From contig JAPUIX010000186.1 in assembly GCA_027296625.1 (NCBI GenBank), positions 1 to 32,222 on the forward strand: a DNA stretch of 32,222 bases. The letters are read 5' to 3'. A program made the position numbers and the translations under genes. The stretch is from Gammaproteobacteria bacterium (GTDB lineage Bacteria; Pseudomonadota; Gammaproteobacteria; JAKEHO01). Positions 340 through 26,855 of this stretch are shown one piece after another (position 1 is the stretch's first letter; every line of letters begins with the position of its first letter). The notes under the pieces were generated by a model. That model saw nothing but the letters and a program-made list of their open reading frames with translations. It made no database searches and was not told where the DNA came from.

Positions 340-1239
340 TTGTTAATCGACCTTAGGGTGGCCGGTATCCCTTCAACGAACTCCAGATCAATTGCCGCGA
401 GTACCGTGTTGCTGACGGTTCTCGCGATGCTGGCATTTGCAGCCAACTCTTTGTTGTGCCGACTTGCTTTAAGACAGGAACTCATCGACCCTGCAAGCTT
501 CGCTACTGTCAGGGTGATCTCCGGCGCGGTGTTGCTGAGTCTCATCGTACTGCCTCGCTGGCGAGCCCGCGGCCGCTCTTCAGCCGATTGGCGCTCTGCC
601 ACCTTGCTATTTACCTACATGGCCTTCTTTTCCTTCGCGTATCTGTCGCTCAGTGCAGGTACAGGCGCGTTAATTCTATTTGGCGCAGTTCAGCTTACGA
701 TGTTTATCGTTGCGCTGCGGGGTGGCGAGCAGTTCCCATTGTTGTCATGGGCCGGGCTCACTCTGGCCATTCTCGGACTGGTGTACCTGGTCTCACCGGG
801 CGTGACTGCACCCGACCTCTTGGGTGCCGTCCTAATGGCCATCGCCGGGATCGCCTGGGGGTTCTATTCGTTGCTGGGTAGGGGCGCCGCCGATCCCCTG
901 GAGGCCACTGCTAACAACTTCATTTACTCGGTGCCCTTAGTGATCATCGTCAGCCTCTTGTTCATCGGCGACTTTCACGGCTCTTCTAGTGGCCTGGCCT
1001 TGGCGGCGGCCTCAGGGGCTATCGCCTCTGGCTTGGGCTATGTTATATGGTATACGGCGCTTCGTGGTCTCACGGCCACCGGTGCAGCCACAGTTCAGCT
1101 CTCTGTTCCCGTGATCGCTGCCTTCGGCGGGGTCCTCTTGCTCTCCGAACAGATAACACTGCGCCTGTTGTTAGCCTCCACCGCAACGCTCGGCGGTGTC
1201 GCGATCGTGCTGTCCCAGCGAGCTGTGCAGGCGCCATAA
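340..1239 (+). CDS. EamA/DMT-family transporter
   Basis: Predicted inner-membrane drug/metabolite exporter of the EamA family; the substrate cannot be told from sequence. The 299 residues are dominated by about ten hydrophobic helices. They form the family's two tandem repeats: the first includes AANSLLCRLALRQ, the second starts near IAGIAWGFYSLLGR. The length is normal for the family. The start is uncertain. An in-frame TAG at 334-336 limits it, and the first options are TTG at 340 and GTG at 358, neither with a convincing ribosome binding site. I list the longer form. The gene stands alone and is bracketed by two related hairpin repeats (218-241 and 1362-1391). A half copy of the repeat (AAGCGGAC at 1244-1251) lies just after its stop. 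This bracketing, and the truncated comEC next door, suggest it arrived by transfer or rearrangement. Confidence 0.88.
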   Translation: MLIDLRVAGIPSTNSRSIAASTVLLTVLAMLAFAANSLLCRLALRQELIDPASFATVRVISGAVLLSLIVLPRWRARGRSSADWRSATLLFTYMAFFSFAYLSLSAGTGALILFGAVQLTMFIVALRGGEQFPLLSWAGLTLAILGLVYLVSPGVTAPDLLGAVLMAIAGIAWGFYSLLGRGAADPLEATANNFIYSVPLVIIVSLLFIGDFHGSSSGLALAAASGAIASGLGYVIWYTALRGLTATGAATVQLSVPVIAAFGGVLLLSEQITLRLLLASTATLGGVAIVLSQRAVQAP

Positions 1240-1361
1240 CCATAAGCGGACGGACGGTGTCCTTCGCTGGCGGGTGGCAGAATCCCTGCAGAGTTTCACT
1301 TCTAGATTGGCATCATGTAACAAACCGCATCGCCAACGAGAACAATGGTGCCATAATCACG

Positions 1362-1391
1362 AATGTCCGCTTTGGGTCGGAAGCGGACATT
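1362..1391. repeat. Hairpin repeat, right copy
   Basis: AATGTCCGCTT (1362-1372) and AAGCGGACATT (1381-1391) form a perfect 11-bp stem around the 8-base loop TGGGTCGG. It shares the GTCCGCTT/AAGCGGAC core and loop length with the copy at 218-241. The plus-strand chance translation across it contains VRFGSEADI, a string I have seen in spurious protein entries from many proteobacteria, consistent with a widely dispersed palindrome. Confidence 0.75.
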
Positions 1392-1530
1392 GCGCCTTAG
1401 TCAGTTAATCCCTAGAACGTTCGTACGGAGCATTATGAGTGCTGTATTTAGGGACTCCTAACCGCCATTTATCTCCACTTTTTGATTGAAGAAAAGTAGT
1501 ACCTTTTCCCTCGCGCGTGCGCGCGTAGTT

Positions 1531-1609: not shown

Positions 1610-2764
1610 TTAAAACTTAGCGCTATATACGGTAGCTACGAGCCACTGTACCCGTCCCCAGCGCCACCAGATCCGTTGGACAGGCGTGCGCCCGATCATG
1701 CCGTATAGAATGACGGCAACCGCCCCAAATGAGAGCCAGAATCCAGCCGAAATGACGGCAAAGGGGTCGATAACCAGAACAACCCCTAACGCCAGGAGCA
1801 AGAGATCTATCGATGCGATACGACGATGGGTGAGCACACCCGCCATCACCAGCGCTATCATAACCAGCGCGCGTTGTGTGGGTACCGAGAACCCAGCCAA
1901 GGCGGCATAGGCGAATGCAGCTAAAAGGCCCGCAATCGCAGCAAAACGTGGCGCTGCAAGATATTGGACGGTAACACCGGCGAGAGACCACAACCAACGC
2001 GCCAAAAAAAATACCAAGCCCGCAATCAGCCCTATATGCAATCCCGAGATCGCCATGAGGTGATTGGTACCGGTACCGGTCAGCACCTGCCACTGGGATT
2101 GTGACATTTTATCGCGAACGCCGATGGCCAAAGCGCCGACCAGACCCGTCTCTGGCGCGTCACCCAGGGCGCCCTGAATAACGTCCCAGAGTCTGTGACG
2201 GAGACGCTGAATCGACGCGACCTTGGCCGTATCAAGGCGCTGATTCGCGGGATGCTTGACGACATAGCCTGTGGCTCGAAGCTTTTCGCGGAAAAGCCAG
2301 CCCTCGTAGTCAAAACCCCCGGGATTCATAAAACCGTAGGGCCTTTTCAGGCGAACAGCCAGTCGCCACGGCTCACCGGGACTAAGTCGAGGTCGGTTGC
2401 CATACCAATTCAGTCGCACCCGTCCCGGGGGATCCCAGTCGCGCCCGTCGAACACGAGCCGCTCGATATCAAGTTCAAAACGGACCGCACGACCTCGTGG
2501 CGTGGGCAGCGATGCGACTGTCCCTTCGACGGTCACCGTCTGGCCTTCAATGGCCTTGGGGAGTGCATCAGAAAGGATCCAATCGGCCCGAAAGAGCGCC
2601 CATAGAAAGCCACAAAGGAAAAATGCAGGGAGTCGGAGCCGACGCGTGAAGAGGATAAGACCAACGCCGACGGGGATAAGGAATATAAGGCGGCTATCGG
2701 GCAGGGACGTCAGTTGAATGCAGGCCAAAATGCCCAAGAGAAACGCCAGGATACCGAGACGCAT
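1610..2764 (-). pseudogene. comEC: ComEC/Rec2 DNA-uptake channel protein, C-terminally truncated
   Basis: ComEC forms the inner-membrane channel for single-stranded DNA in natural transformation. This 384-residue product has the N-terminal hydrophobic helices and DUF4131-type soluble domain (about 1-185), then the start of the Competence domain with HLMAISGLHI at 235-244, VPTQRA at 294-299 and GFWLSFGAVAVILYG near 341-355. Family members are usually about 700-800 residues. This one stops just after RVQWLVATVY, with a foreign-looking SAKF tail. Half of the Competence domain and the whole C-terminal metallo-beta-lactamase-like domain are therefore missing. No continuation is visible downstream, where the DNA turns AT-rich and repeat-bearing. 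The start ATG at 2764 agrees with the family. It is most likely a nonfunctional remnant at a rearrangement boundary. An assembly join is the alternative explanation. Confidence 0.85.
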
Positions 2765-23817: not shown

Positions 23818-24414
23818 CTAATCTAGATCTCTTATCAGCGATGCACGCACGTCTTCTGCAATGGAATCTACTTTGTGCAGATAGTTCTCATGTTCGATCC
23901 CGATACCAACGTGGCTACCTGATTTGAGGTCGCGTATCATATCGGGTGTTAATTCAAAACGAACAAAGTGTACGGACGAGGTCTTGGATTCATCCTCCCG
24001 TTCCAGATCTTCATCGGCGGTTGCCCATACAGGATCATGGTTACCAACCTTTACCCATACCCGATCTTCCACGCCAATAAGCTGGGCGAGCGCACTCGTG
24101 CGCTCGCCGACATCTTCGTATTCAAGCATCATCGTAGCCTTCCAGTTGCTGCCATCCGGAATTAATGGATTATAGGTGTCAAGTTCAGCTTGGATCTCGT
24201 CTTTTGCAAAGATTCGTTCAACTCGCAACATTTCCTGAACTTGGTACTGAATGGTTAGCCGATCCTCGAAATACAACGTGGCGTTCGGTCCAACATGGAC
24301 CTTGCGATCCTTCTTATGAGCCATTACTTCCGCGCGAAATTGTGCCCGATCCGCCGCGTATTCCTCCAAAGAATACAGATCTTGTCGGATTATCGTCTTC
24401 AATATTGACGACAT
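23818..24414 (-). CDS. DUF3501 family protein
   Basis: Soluble protein of unknown function, 198 residues from the ATG at 24414 (MSSILKTIIRQDLYSLEEYAA); the open frame upstream to 24447 is not conserved. The body is typical DUF3501: AHKKDRKVHVGPNATLYFEDRLTIQYQ is followed by EMLRVERIF, NPLIPDGSNWKATMMLEY, ADEDLERE, and KTSSVHFVRFEL. It has no signal, membrane helix or cysteine cluster. The family is regularly encoded next to a rubrerythrin and a CCG-domain iron-sulfur protein, and it is the last gene of that trio here. A role with those proteins in peroxide, oxygen or metal stress is an inference from context; no biochemical activity is known to me. Confidence 0.9.
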   Translation of the reverse strand: MSSILKTIIRQDLYSLEEYAADRAQFRAEVMAHKKDRKVHVGPNATLYFEDRLTIQYQVQEMLRVERIFAKDEIQAELDTYNPLIPDGSNWKATMMLEYEDVGERTSALAQLIGVEDRVWVKVGNHDPVWATADEDLEREDESKTSSVHFVRFELTPDMIRDLKSGSHVGIGIEHENYLHKVDSIAEDVRASLIRDLD

Positions 24415-24477
24415 TTTCCAACTATAGCTGCATTCTAGACGCAGCAAAATGAATCTTCAGGTGCTGGTACAAAAGCA

Positions 24478-25824
24478 CTAAATGCCGTAGGCATTCCGAA
24501 ATAACGCCAACGGGTGTTCGGGTTTCATTCCACCACTCAATCCATTTTCTATCTGATGTCCCGCCATCGGGCAGTCACTGGCATAGTGATCGGACCTGCT
24601 TTCCTGCAGTCGTGAAATTACCGGCTTACAAATTTTCATTGACGGTTTATGGAATTCTTTCTTTACCGCGTAAGTACCATTGTGCCCAGAGCAACGTTGA
24701 ATCGTCTCCACCGTCGTTCCCGGGATTAGCTGTAATGCTTCGCGGGTCTTTAATCCAATGTTCTGTACACGCAAGTGACAGGCCGCGTGGTAAAAGATCT
24801 TGCCCAGCGGGTTCGAAAAATCAGTCCGCAGTTTATTGGCCTTATGACGTAACATTAGATATTCAAAAGGATCAAACATGGCATCGCGGATTTTTCTTAC
24901 GTTAGGGTCGTCTGGAAACAATAAGGGCAATTCTTGCTTGAACATCAACACACACGAGGGTACGGGCGCCACGATATCCCAGCCTTCATCCACTAGCCGG
25001 GTCAATACGGCAATATTCGTCTTCTTTGCGCGGGCAACGGCATCCAGATCACCCAATTCGAGCATTGGCATCCCGCAGCACCGCTCCTTGCTAGCTAATG
25101 TGACTGGAATACCATTGTGCGCAAATATTGTTATCAGATCTTCGCCGAGCTGCGGTTCATTTCGGTTGCCATAGCAAGTCACAAATAGCGCAACCTTTCC
25201 CTGGGTGGTTTCTGTCGGCTCAGGAATGATATGTGCCGGCTTACTCCGCTTTCGCCGCCTACGAAACGTATCGCTATGATATGTTGGTAGCAAGGCCTCC
25301 CGATGAACGCCCAGAGTCTTCTCCATCACTTTACGGGCAGACGGGTTCTTGTTTGCTGCATTGACAATCTCTGCAACAACCGGGATCCCGGCTAGCCTTC
25401 CGACAACATCCGTAGAACTCAGGATCTTGTCACGGGCACGCGTTTTCCCTTTCTTATATTTCACTGCCTTGGCCCGCAGCATGAGGTGAGGAAAGTCCAC
25501 ATTCCAAGGATGAGGTGGTACATAGGGGCACTTAGTCATAAAACACAAATCACAAAGATAGCAGTGGTCAACGACCTGCCAATAGTCTTTCTTTGCCACG
25601 CCGTCTATTTCCATAGTCTCCGATTCATCAATAAGGTCGAAAAGGGTTGGAAACGCGTTGCAGAGACTTACGCAACGCCGGCAGCCGTGACAGATATCAA
25701 ACACCCTGTCAAATTCCTTGACCAGGGTTTCTTCATTATAGAAATCGGGATCTTGCCAATTGATTGGATGGCGCATCGGCGCCTTAAGACTGCCTTCGCT
25801 CTGTTCGTCTCGCAGTTTAGACAT
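24478..25824 (-). CDS. CCG-domain iron-sulfur oxidoreductase (GlpC/HdrD-like)
   Basis: Probable electron-transfer protein of 448 residues. An N-terminal ferredoxin-like domain carries two 4Fe-4S sets: C45, C48, C51, C55 and C88, C91, C94, C99 (the last before Pro). Two cysteine-rich CCG domains follow. The first has C217, C249-C250-G and C291; the second has C349, a C378-S-G variant and C418. The order resembles GlpC, the electron-transfer subunit of anaerobic glycerol-3-phosphate dehydrogenase, and heterodisulfide reductase subunits. However, no glpA, glpB or other partner dehydrogenase is adjacent. No membrane segment is present. It sits between rubrerythrin and DUF3501 genes on the same strand. 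I infer a role as an electron donor or sensor for that unit, not glycerol metabolism. Confidence 0.9.
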   Translation of the reverse strand: MSKLRDEQSEGSLKAPMRHPINWQDPDFYNEETLVKEFDRVFDICHGCRRCVSLCNAFPTLFDLIDESETMEIDGVAKKDYWQVVDHCYLCDLCFMTKCPYVPPHPWNVDFPHLMLRAKAVKYKKGKTRARDKILSSTDVVGRLAGIPVVAEIVNAANKNPSARKVMEKTLGVHREALLPTYHSDTFRRRRKRSKPAHIIPEPTETTQGKVALFVTCYGNRNEPQLGEDLITIFAHNGIPVTLASKERCCGMPMLELGDLDAVARAKKTNIAVLTRLVDEGWDIVAPVPSCVLMFKQELPLLFPDDPNVRKIRDAMFDPFEYLMLRHKANKLRTDFSNPLGKIFYHAACHLRVQNIGLKTREALQLIPGTTVETIQRCSGHNGTYAVKKEFHKPSMKICKPVISRLQESRSDHYASDCPMAGHQIENGLSGGMKPEHPLALFRNAYGI

Positions 25825-25950: not shown

Positions 25951-26367
25951 CTAGTCTAATGTCTCCAGGGCTTTCTTGAATCGATTGGCGTGTGAGCGCT
26001 CAGCCTTGGCAAGGGTCTCGAACCAATCGGCAATCTCATCGAGGTTTTCTTCGCGTGCGGTCTTTGCCATGCCGGGATACATATCGGTGTACTCATAGGT
26101 TTCCCCTGCAATGGCCGACTTAAGATTGTCTTCAGTTGCACCAATCGGTAACCCAGTTACGGGATCACCGATAGCCTCTAGGTATTCCAGATGCCCATGG
26201 GCATGCCCGGTCTCCCCTTCCGCGGTGGAGCGGAAGACGGCGGAAACATCGTTGTAGCCCTCCACATCGGCCTTCTGGGCGAAATACAAGTACCGGCGGT
26301 TGGCCTGGGATTCGCCGGCGAATGCGTCTTTCAAATTCTCTTCTGTCTTGCTGCCTTGGAGTGACAT
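25951..26367 (-). CDS. Rubrerythrin family protein lacking the rubredoxin domain
   Basis: Ferritin-like diiron protein of 138 residues, likely a peroxide reductase in the cytoplasm. The diiron ligands are all recognisable: E19 (GESQANRRY), E52 and H55 ([10 protein letters not shown]), E89 and E92 ([10 protein letters not shown]), and E123 and H126 ([10 protein letters not shown]). Classical rubrerythrins carry a C-terminal rubredoxin domain that delivers electrons. Here the protein ends soon after the last helix, so it needs an external donor, and the adjacent iron-sulfur protein is an obvious candidate. The ATG is preceded by GGAGGAAATTC, the strongest ribosome binding site in the window, suggesting high expression. 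A promoter and an inverted-repeat operator lie upstream. Confidence 0.95.
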
Positions 26368-26428
26368 GAATTTCCTCCTCCGGATTTTCGTCAGTTAGCC
26401 GAGCCGTATCGGCCCTTTTGGCGCGGAA

Positions 26429-26445
26429 TTTAGACTAATTCTAAA
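26429..26445. promoter_or_regulatory. Inverted-repeat operator upstream of rubrerythrin
   Basis: TTTAGA-CTAAT-TCTAAA is a perfect inverted repeat with a 5-base centre. It lies just downstream of the predicted start of rubrerythrin transcription, where a bound repressor would block the polymerase. Read as a 7-1-7 site (TTAGACT-A-ATTCTAA) it resembles PerR boxes; the GACTAATT core also recalls IscR/Rrf2-type sites. The regulator cannot be assigned from the site alone. Confidence 0.55.
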
Positions 26446-26454
26446 AGCCGATAA

Positions 26455-26483
26455 AATTTACACCACATCCTCTACCCTGTCAA
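26455..26483 (-). promoter_or_regulatory. Sigma-70-type promoter of the rubrerythrin unit
   Basis: On the minus strand a perfect -35 TTGACA (26483-26478) is separated by exactly 17 bases from TAAATT (26460-26455), a 4-of-6 match to the -10 consensus. Transcription would start around 26448, giving a leader of about 80 bases and placing the operator at about +3 to +20. Confidence 0.6.
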
Positions 26484-26524: not shown

Positions 26525-26606
26525 AGACGATCATTGCTACGCGTTCTTGATTGACCGCTTCTCACAGGGTGCGTTAACGTAGATGCATCTCGAACGGGGA
26601 CAGACC

Positions 26607-26855
26607 GTGCCAAAGCAGAAACGAAGTAGCTTTCACTTCGAGCGTGCCCTCGGAGAGCTGGAGAAACTGGTTGAGAAGATGGAGGGAGGGGATTTGAGCC
26701 TGGAAGAATCTCTTAAACATTTTGAGCGGGGCATCGAGCTAACAAGGGCCTGCCAGAAGGCACTCGCCGAAGCCGAGCAAAAAGTACAGATCCTGCTGGA
26801 AAAGGAAGGGAAGACGGAGCTTGAGCCCTTCAGTCCAGACGACGATATCGATTAG
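26607..26855 (+). CDS. xseB: Exodeoxyribonuclease VII small subunit
   Basis: XseB is the small helical subunit that assembles on XseA to form exonuclease VII, which degrades single-stranded DNA. The product has 82 residues from GTG at 26607 (MPKQKRSSFHFERALGELEKLVEKMEGGDLSLEESLKHFERG), the usual length. An ATG at 26583 would add eight residues that do not resemble the family, and it lacks a ribosome binding site. The GTG is preceded by GGGGA at proper spacing. The family signature LE.LV..ME.GDLSLE.SL..FE.G is intact, followed by an acidic tail. Only five bases separate its stop from the ispA ATG, the classic xseB-ispA arrangement. Confidence 0.95.
   Translation: MPKQKRSSFHFERALGELEKLVEKMEGGDLSLEESLKHFERGIELTRACQKALAEAEQKVQILLEKEGKTELEPFSPDDDID

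Follow-up and report, generated by a model that had tools for sequence, protein, structure and literature searches.

A conserved operator-promoter unit ahead of aerobic-type rubrerythrin operons, probably served by an Irr/PerR-type Fur-family repressor

Two known boxes of Fur-type regulators resemble the site described here: the ICE consensus of the Irr system (TTTAGAA-N3-TTCTAAA), which is nearly identical to it, and the PerR box of Bacillus and Leptospira, TTATAATnATTATAA, to which it is related as a 7-1-7 palindrome. In Rhodobacter and Bradyrhizobium, Irr is reported to repress the rubrerythrin-like mbfA/blr7895 through a box located where transcription begins (PMC3413700), and rubrerythrin is mentioned in papers on PerR of Campylobacter and Clostridioides. 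For Acidithiobacilli, Irr-type and PerR-type Fur paralogues have been predicted together with their gene context (PMC2631029). The genes at the present locus are likewise described as a group: the aerobic-type rubrerythrin cluster comprises RBR, RFO and DUF3501, with gene context and phylogeny treated in PMC5114695. Ferriperoxin, a relative from Hydrogenobacter thermophilus, acts on both hydrogen peroxide and organic hydroperoxides by reduction, and the organism requires it to grow aerobically (PMC3317640). A word search of the main text of PMC5114695 yielded no occurrence of 'PerR', 'binding site' or 'transcriptional regulator', and five word-start matches for 'Fur'. In the open-access literature, no description of the rubrerythrin box was present among the matches listed, and the letters of the ICE consensus, used as a literature query, returned only unrelated titles among the matches listed. 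Control of rubrerythrin-like genes by Irr or PerR is already known; new are the target operon, the host range and the possibly orphan state of the operator.

The window, i.e., the whole analysed stretch of 32,222 nucleotides (contig JAPUIX010000186.1 of the gammaproteobacterial assembly GCA_027296625.1), contains the three genes of the aerobic-type cluster in the order rubrerythrin, RFO, DUF3501 (Table 1), forming a presumed operon that points away from xseB and ispA. The rubrerythrin (ATG at 26367; Pfam Rubrerythrin 104.9 bits, residues 2-138) has no rubredoxin domain and is accompanied by RFO and DUF3501, as is typical of aerobic-type operons; GlpC models score below cut-off for the RFO protein. 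The original prediction placed a TTGACA-17-TAAATT promoter towards rubrerythrin, which direct reading and a promoter scan confirmed, and a perfect TTTAGA-N5-TCTAAA repeat at about +3 to +20 of the transcript. The latter is indeed present with all 12 palindromic bases (minus-strand letters of 26445-26429: TTTAGAATTAGTCTAAA); relative to a transcription start that the hexamer spacing would place near 26448, its coordinates correspond to about +4 to +20. Elsewhere in the window, a ComEC-like ORF (1610-2764, minus strand) comprises just 384 aa and runs out once 159 of the 270 Competence domain positions are covered, so it is possibly truncated.

Table 1. Coordinates of the operator, predicted promoter and neighbouring genes in the window
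Feature	Position	Strand	Basis
Operator, perfect palindrome TTTAGA-N5-TCTAAA, 15-base core TTAGANTNANTCTAA	26429..26445	.	Read, scanned, conserved before rubrerythrin
-35 hexamer TTGACA of the rubrerythrin promoter (predicted)	26478..26483	-	Sequence read and promoter scan
-10 hexamer TAAATT (predicted), 17-base spacer to TTGACA	26455..26460	-	Sequence read and promoter scan
Shine-Dalgarno AGGAGG of rubrerythrin	26374..26379	-	Read from sequence
Rubrerythrin, aerobic type, without rubredoxin domain, ferriperoxin-like, 138 aa	25951..26367	-	Pfam Rubrerythrin
RFO, GlpC-like Fe-S protein	24478..25824	-	Pfam CCG 49.1 bits; RFO association reported in PMC5114695
DUF3501 protein, third gene of presumed operon, start approximate	23818..24447	-	Pfam DUF3501 246.8 bits
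xseB, divergent neighbour, bounds the intergenic region	26583..26855	+	Domain/family searches

Taken singly, neither element of the site stands out. Five promoter-like sites were found in 6 kb, compared with 6.6 in shuffled sequences; TTGACA-17-TAAATT is the best of the five, and by itself the rubrerythrin promoter is not remarkable, being no better than chance. With up to two mismatches, the palindrome occurs once in the window against a shuffle mean of 0.96, while the perfect form is not repeated anywhere else in the assembly of 2.42 Mb. Since a single sequence constitutes weak evidence, comparison across genomes was needed.

The comparison comprised 128 regions upstream of rubrerythrin. A search of 114 genomes (own genome included) supplied 30 loci plus 18 additional regions, the latter being its remaining matches of at least 76 % identity; the other 80 regions belong to named loci and were the top 80 of 595 in a single contig scan. 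The set contains the window's own copy, G088 with two copies and one or more duplicate pairs; the weaker matches of the genome search, at 54 % identity or below, and both G001 fragments had been dropped prior to counting. With a threshold of at least 10 of the 12 palindromic bases within 350 bases of the rubrerythrin start, the box was found in 71 of the 128 regions (40 perfect), as against 3 of 128 (none perfect) when the same regions were read backwards. Conservation of the motif ahead of orthologues, on which the original prediction had staked itself, is thus borne out. The 70 distinct sites yield the consensus tTTAGA[CA]TnA[GT]TCTAAa, in which nearly all of the information content falls within the palindrome of 17-18 bases (0.2 bits or less in the other columns).

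The position of the box relative to the promoter is likewise shared. According to a simple weighted score devised for this analysis, the best promoter, sigma-70-like in type, begins 34-42 bases upstream of the box for 45 of the 70 regions that contain one, where 5.0 would be expected if positions were uniform; the corresponding distance in the window genome is 38 bases. Because promoters of this group end before the box, the signal is not created by the box itself. A second group (11/70, at -25 to -16) mostly reflects the box being taken as the -10 element and may be partly an artefact, and in 6 of 70 regions the best promoter lies downstream of the box. A conserved operator just after the promoter agrees with the geometry of repression that had been predicted for this site, and would be suited to repression as such. 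At the level of sequence comparison, the site is confirmed as a real, conserved operator-promoter unit. That a palindrome happens to lie next to an ordinary promoter by chance, as the chance-level values of promoter and two-mismatch palindrome would allow when taken singly, is extremely improbable in view of conservation and common geometry over many genomes, and is refuted for the family by the forward and backward counts given above. In G090, two boxes about 20 bases apart precede rubrerythrin (C24:14916 and about 14935).

The likely candidate for the protein binding this operator is an Irr/PerR-type member of the Fur family, the gene of which is present in 44 of 114 genomes at 69 bits or more, with the next family members at 41 bits. 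A Fur-family gene is located next to the rubrerythrin operon in 12 of 110 loci, ten of them with the gene immediately upstream (mostly alphaproteobacterial by title) and two gammaproteobacterial ones with the gene downstream, just beyond the operon; judged by coordinates, the regulator also lies just beyond the operon in G007 and G093. The box reaches the threshold in 8 of these 12 regulator-adjacent loci (7/10 upstream, 1/2 downstream) and scores 8-9 of 12 in the other four.

Box and regulator also tend to occur together. In a first set of 48 rubrerythrin regions (G088 counted twice; all genomes except the own one and G001 from different families), the box was present in 27 of 33 regions with the regulator as compared to 3 of 15 without (Fisher p = 7e-5, two-sided), and one of these three, G032, looks like chance. 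A second set of 49 named genomes, searched with the family profile, gave 20/25 versus 9/24 (p = 0.003, one-sided). Combined, the box accompanies 47 of 58 entries with the regulator versus 12 of 39 without; the tests take no account of relatedness and many of the assemblies are incomplete. Expressed as exceptions, a regulator was not detected in 12 of the 59 entries that carry the box, and the box fails to reach the threshold in 11 of the 58 entries with a regulator.

The region ahead of the regulator gene itself carries the motif in part of the genomes. At least 10 of the 12 core bases occur within 120 bases of the start in 8 of the 30 best-matching loci, five of them at a distance of 35-39 bases, compared with none of 30 when read backwards and none among 724 further windows taken from these loci. 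At 9 of 12 or better the counts are 14/30 versus 5/30 backwards, and 16/30 remain below this level. The regulator gene is located downstream of a thiO-like gene (named by eye) in 23 of the 30 loci (L130-L159).

All 42 Irr/PerR-type proteins inspected (30 plus the 12 adjacent ones) share an Asn within the DNA-reading helix and a metal-site Asp, contain no CxxC and display an HxH motif. This haem-binding motif, a criterion of the Irr/ICE system, is not specific, since it also occurs in the Fur of the window genome; this Fur otherwise has Arg, Glu and CxxC, and the own Zur has Arg and Gly. The Asn/Arg and Asp/Glu positions are reported to separate PerR from Fur (PMC8638851). For all three proteins scanned, Irr models score above PerR models: NCBIfam IrrA (cut-off 150) assigns 201 bits to the alphaproteobacterial-type protein of L069 (Sneathiella chungangensis) and 107 and 136 bits to the gamma-type proteins of L119 and L135, respectively, whereas the PerRA model yields 63-96 bits, short of its cut-off of 200. 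The nearest solved structure found for one of them is 5nl9, described as Leptospira PerR without the structural metal site (PMC8638851). Based on residues, NCBIfam scores and nearest structure, the protein is therefore named Irr/PerR-type here. The PerR-type binder proposed originally is well supported for the family by adjacency, co-occurrence, self-box and the invariant Asn/Asp pair.

Compared with the alphaproteobacterial Irr/ICE system, the present one shares a Fur-family protein and, in ten loci, an Irr-type gene directly before rubrerythrin, that of L069 passing the IrrA cut-off; a palindrome resembling the ICE box at the predicted transcription start may be a further parallel. It differs in that the target is a soluble aerobic-type rubrerythrin operon, the hosts are mostly Gammaproteobacteria, the two gamma-type proteins stay under the IrrA cut-off and strict-core sites are not in excess outside the rubrerythrin operon. 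With PerR it has in common the Asn/Asp pair and the closest solved structure found. In contrast to the PerR box, which has T and A at these positions, the half-sites of the rubrerythrin box contain G and often C (TTAGA[CA]T), and the better scores of the Irr models are a further difference.

Other regulators were considered as binders. The window genome encodes both a Fur, which is paralogous to the presumed binder, and a member of the Rrf2/IscR family; that either the own Fur or IscR occupies the site is nevertheless very unlikely. In the own Fur, Arg and Glu take the places that Asn and Asp hold in all 42 Irr/PerR-type proteins inspected, and the Fur consensus site differs from the rubrerythrin box. 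Rrf2-family proteins are found in 14 of 14 rubrerythrin genomes without an Irr/PerR-type gene, and in 11 of these genomes the box stays below threshold, so that presence of Rrf2/IscR does not predict the box; moreover, the type 1 consensus of IscR, GACT-N5-AGTC, differs in spacing. On the grounds of residues, Rrf2 distribution and consensus differences both were rejected as binders, and with them the IscR-like link suggested earlier.

An incidental box in an operon controlled by OxyR is hardly probable. The window genome does contain an OxyR-like gene, which shares 55 % identity with its L104 counterpart, and a gene of this kind (LysR type, named by eye) lies beside rubrerythrin in 14 of 110 loci. 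However, the box is present in none of 14 OxyR-adjacent operons versus 71 of 114 others, the OxyR-like gene of the window genome resides on another contig, and inspection of the window's intergenic region by eye revealed no OxyR-type site. In the OxyR-adjacent locus L070, GATAGTTATCTTCTATC, 124 bases before rubrerythrin, resembles an OxyR half-site pattern. Judging from these counts, box and adjacent OxyR look like alternatives, and OxyR as such occurs in 31 of 48 genomes, both with and without the box.

Preference is given to the Irr/PerR-type protein, and the question of its further targets was addressed by motif searches. In the window genome, 48 sites with two mismatches or fewer (one perfect) compare with 67 for the backward pattern. 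The other strict-core match, at C29:15602, was set aside as chance because it has a G where none of the 70 sites has one; a one-mismatch match is located at C28:17712. The whole-genome search suggested in the original prediction hence points to no wider regulon, the rubrerythrin site being the only convincing one in the assembly. Across the 114 genomes, 40 strict-core matches were found, 22 before rubrerythrin and 18 elsewhere; as the backward pattern also totals 40, there is no excess of strict-core sites outside the rubrerythrin operon, and 17 of 44 regulator-bearing relatives contain no strict-core match at all. Eight of the 18 matches away from rubrerythrin were inspected. Seven of these (G000:C29 in the window genome, G052, G089, G044, G033:C206, G099:C164 and G101:C143) had no clear target. 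A suggestive case is G099, a genome of 73 % completeness with the regulator and without a detected rubrerythrin, where a strict core (L183, about 1501-1515) precedes an AhpC-type peroxiredoxin ORF (861-1466, minus strand; named by eye) by about 35 bases.

In the window assembly (97.7 % complete, 188 contigs), no Irr/PerR-type gene was found: Pfam gives just Fur and Zur, and the only match to the Irr/PerR profile is Fur at 43 bits. With neighbours named by eye and NCBIfam consulted, the own Fur lies near recN and a bamE-like gene and the own Zur near a znuA-like gene; the NCBIfam Zur score of the latter protein is below cut-off. An Irr/PerR-type gene was likewise not found in G001, the sole congener compared (87 % complete, about 120 contigs), and the thiO-like gene is without a close match in the window assembly (one query, best stretch 26 % identity) and in G001. 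In this congener, the rubrerythrin of locus L178 (C70:51500-54500), at 960-1470, has a 231-base internal deletion plus a one-base gap, the RFO ORF is shortened to 148 aa and the -35 hexamer is changed; the box keeps 10 of 12 palindromic bases amid diverged flanks. The rubrerythrin operon thus seems to be decaying in G001.

Since neither the repressor nor the thiO-like gene, its usual neighbour, was found and the operon of G001 is broken, an orphan operator represents a serious possibility, if still a doubtful one: the repressor would have been lost in the lineage, the site would be a relic and the operon constitutive or otherwise controlled. The box is nevertheless still perfect in the window genome and largely kept in G001, numbers too small to prove selection, and both assemblies are fragmented. 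The alternative to an orphan site is a repressor gene within the missing 2.3 % of the assembly.

Taken together, the site is probably the operator of the peroxide-defence operon rubrerythrin-RFO-DUF3501, bound in the wider lineage by the Irr/PerR-type Fur-family repressor; binding, repression and signal are what we infer from sequence patterns. A dimer of this protein would sit on the transcription start of the rubrerythrin operon and block RNA polymerase; its release may be triggered by peroxide or by a shift in iron or haem, such that the peroxidase would be made when needed. The repressor's own gene also bears the box in a sizeable share of genomes, and in the window genome it may be either in the unassembled part or lost. 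Going further, one may speculate, on balance against the odds, that an Irr-clade protein turned into a PerR-like peroxide switch for little beyond the aerobic rubrerythrin operon and itself in Gamma- and Alphaproteobacteria, that OxyR replaces it elsewhere, and that in the window's genus the operator outlived the repressor with the operon starting to decay.

The aerobic-type rubrerythrin operon is herewith assigned a conserved operator and a likely regulator. The genomes compared would moreover offer two natural comparisons, one between Irr/PerR-type and OxyR as alternative peroxide controls acting on a single enzyme, and the other between an operator with and without its repressor.
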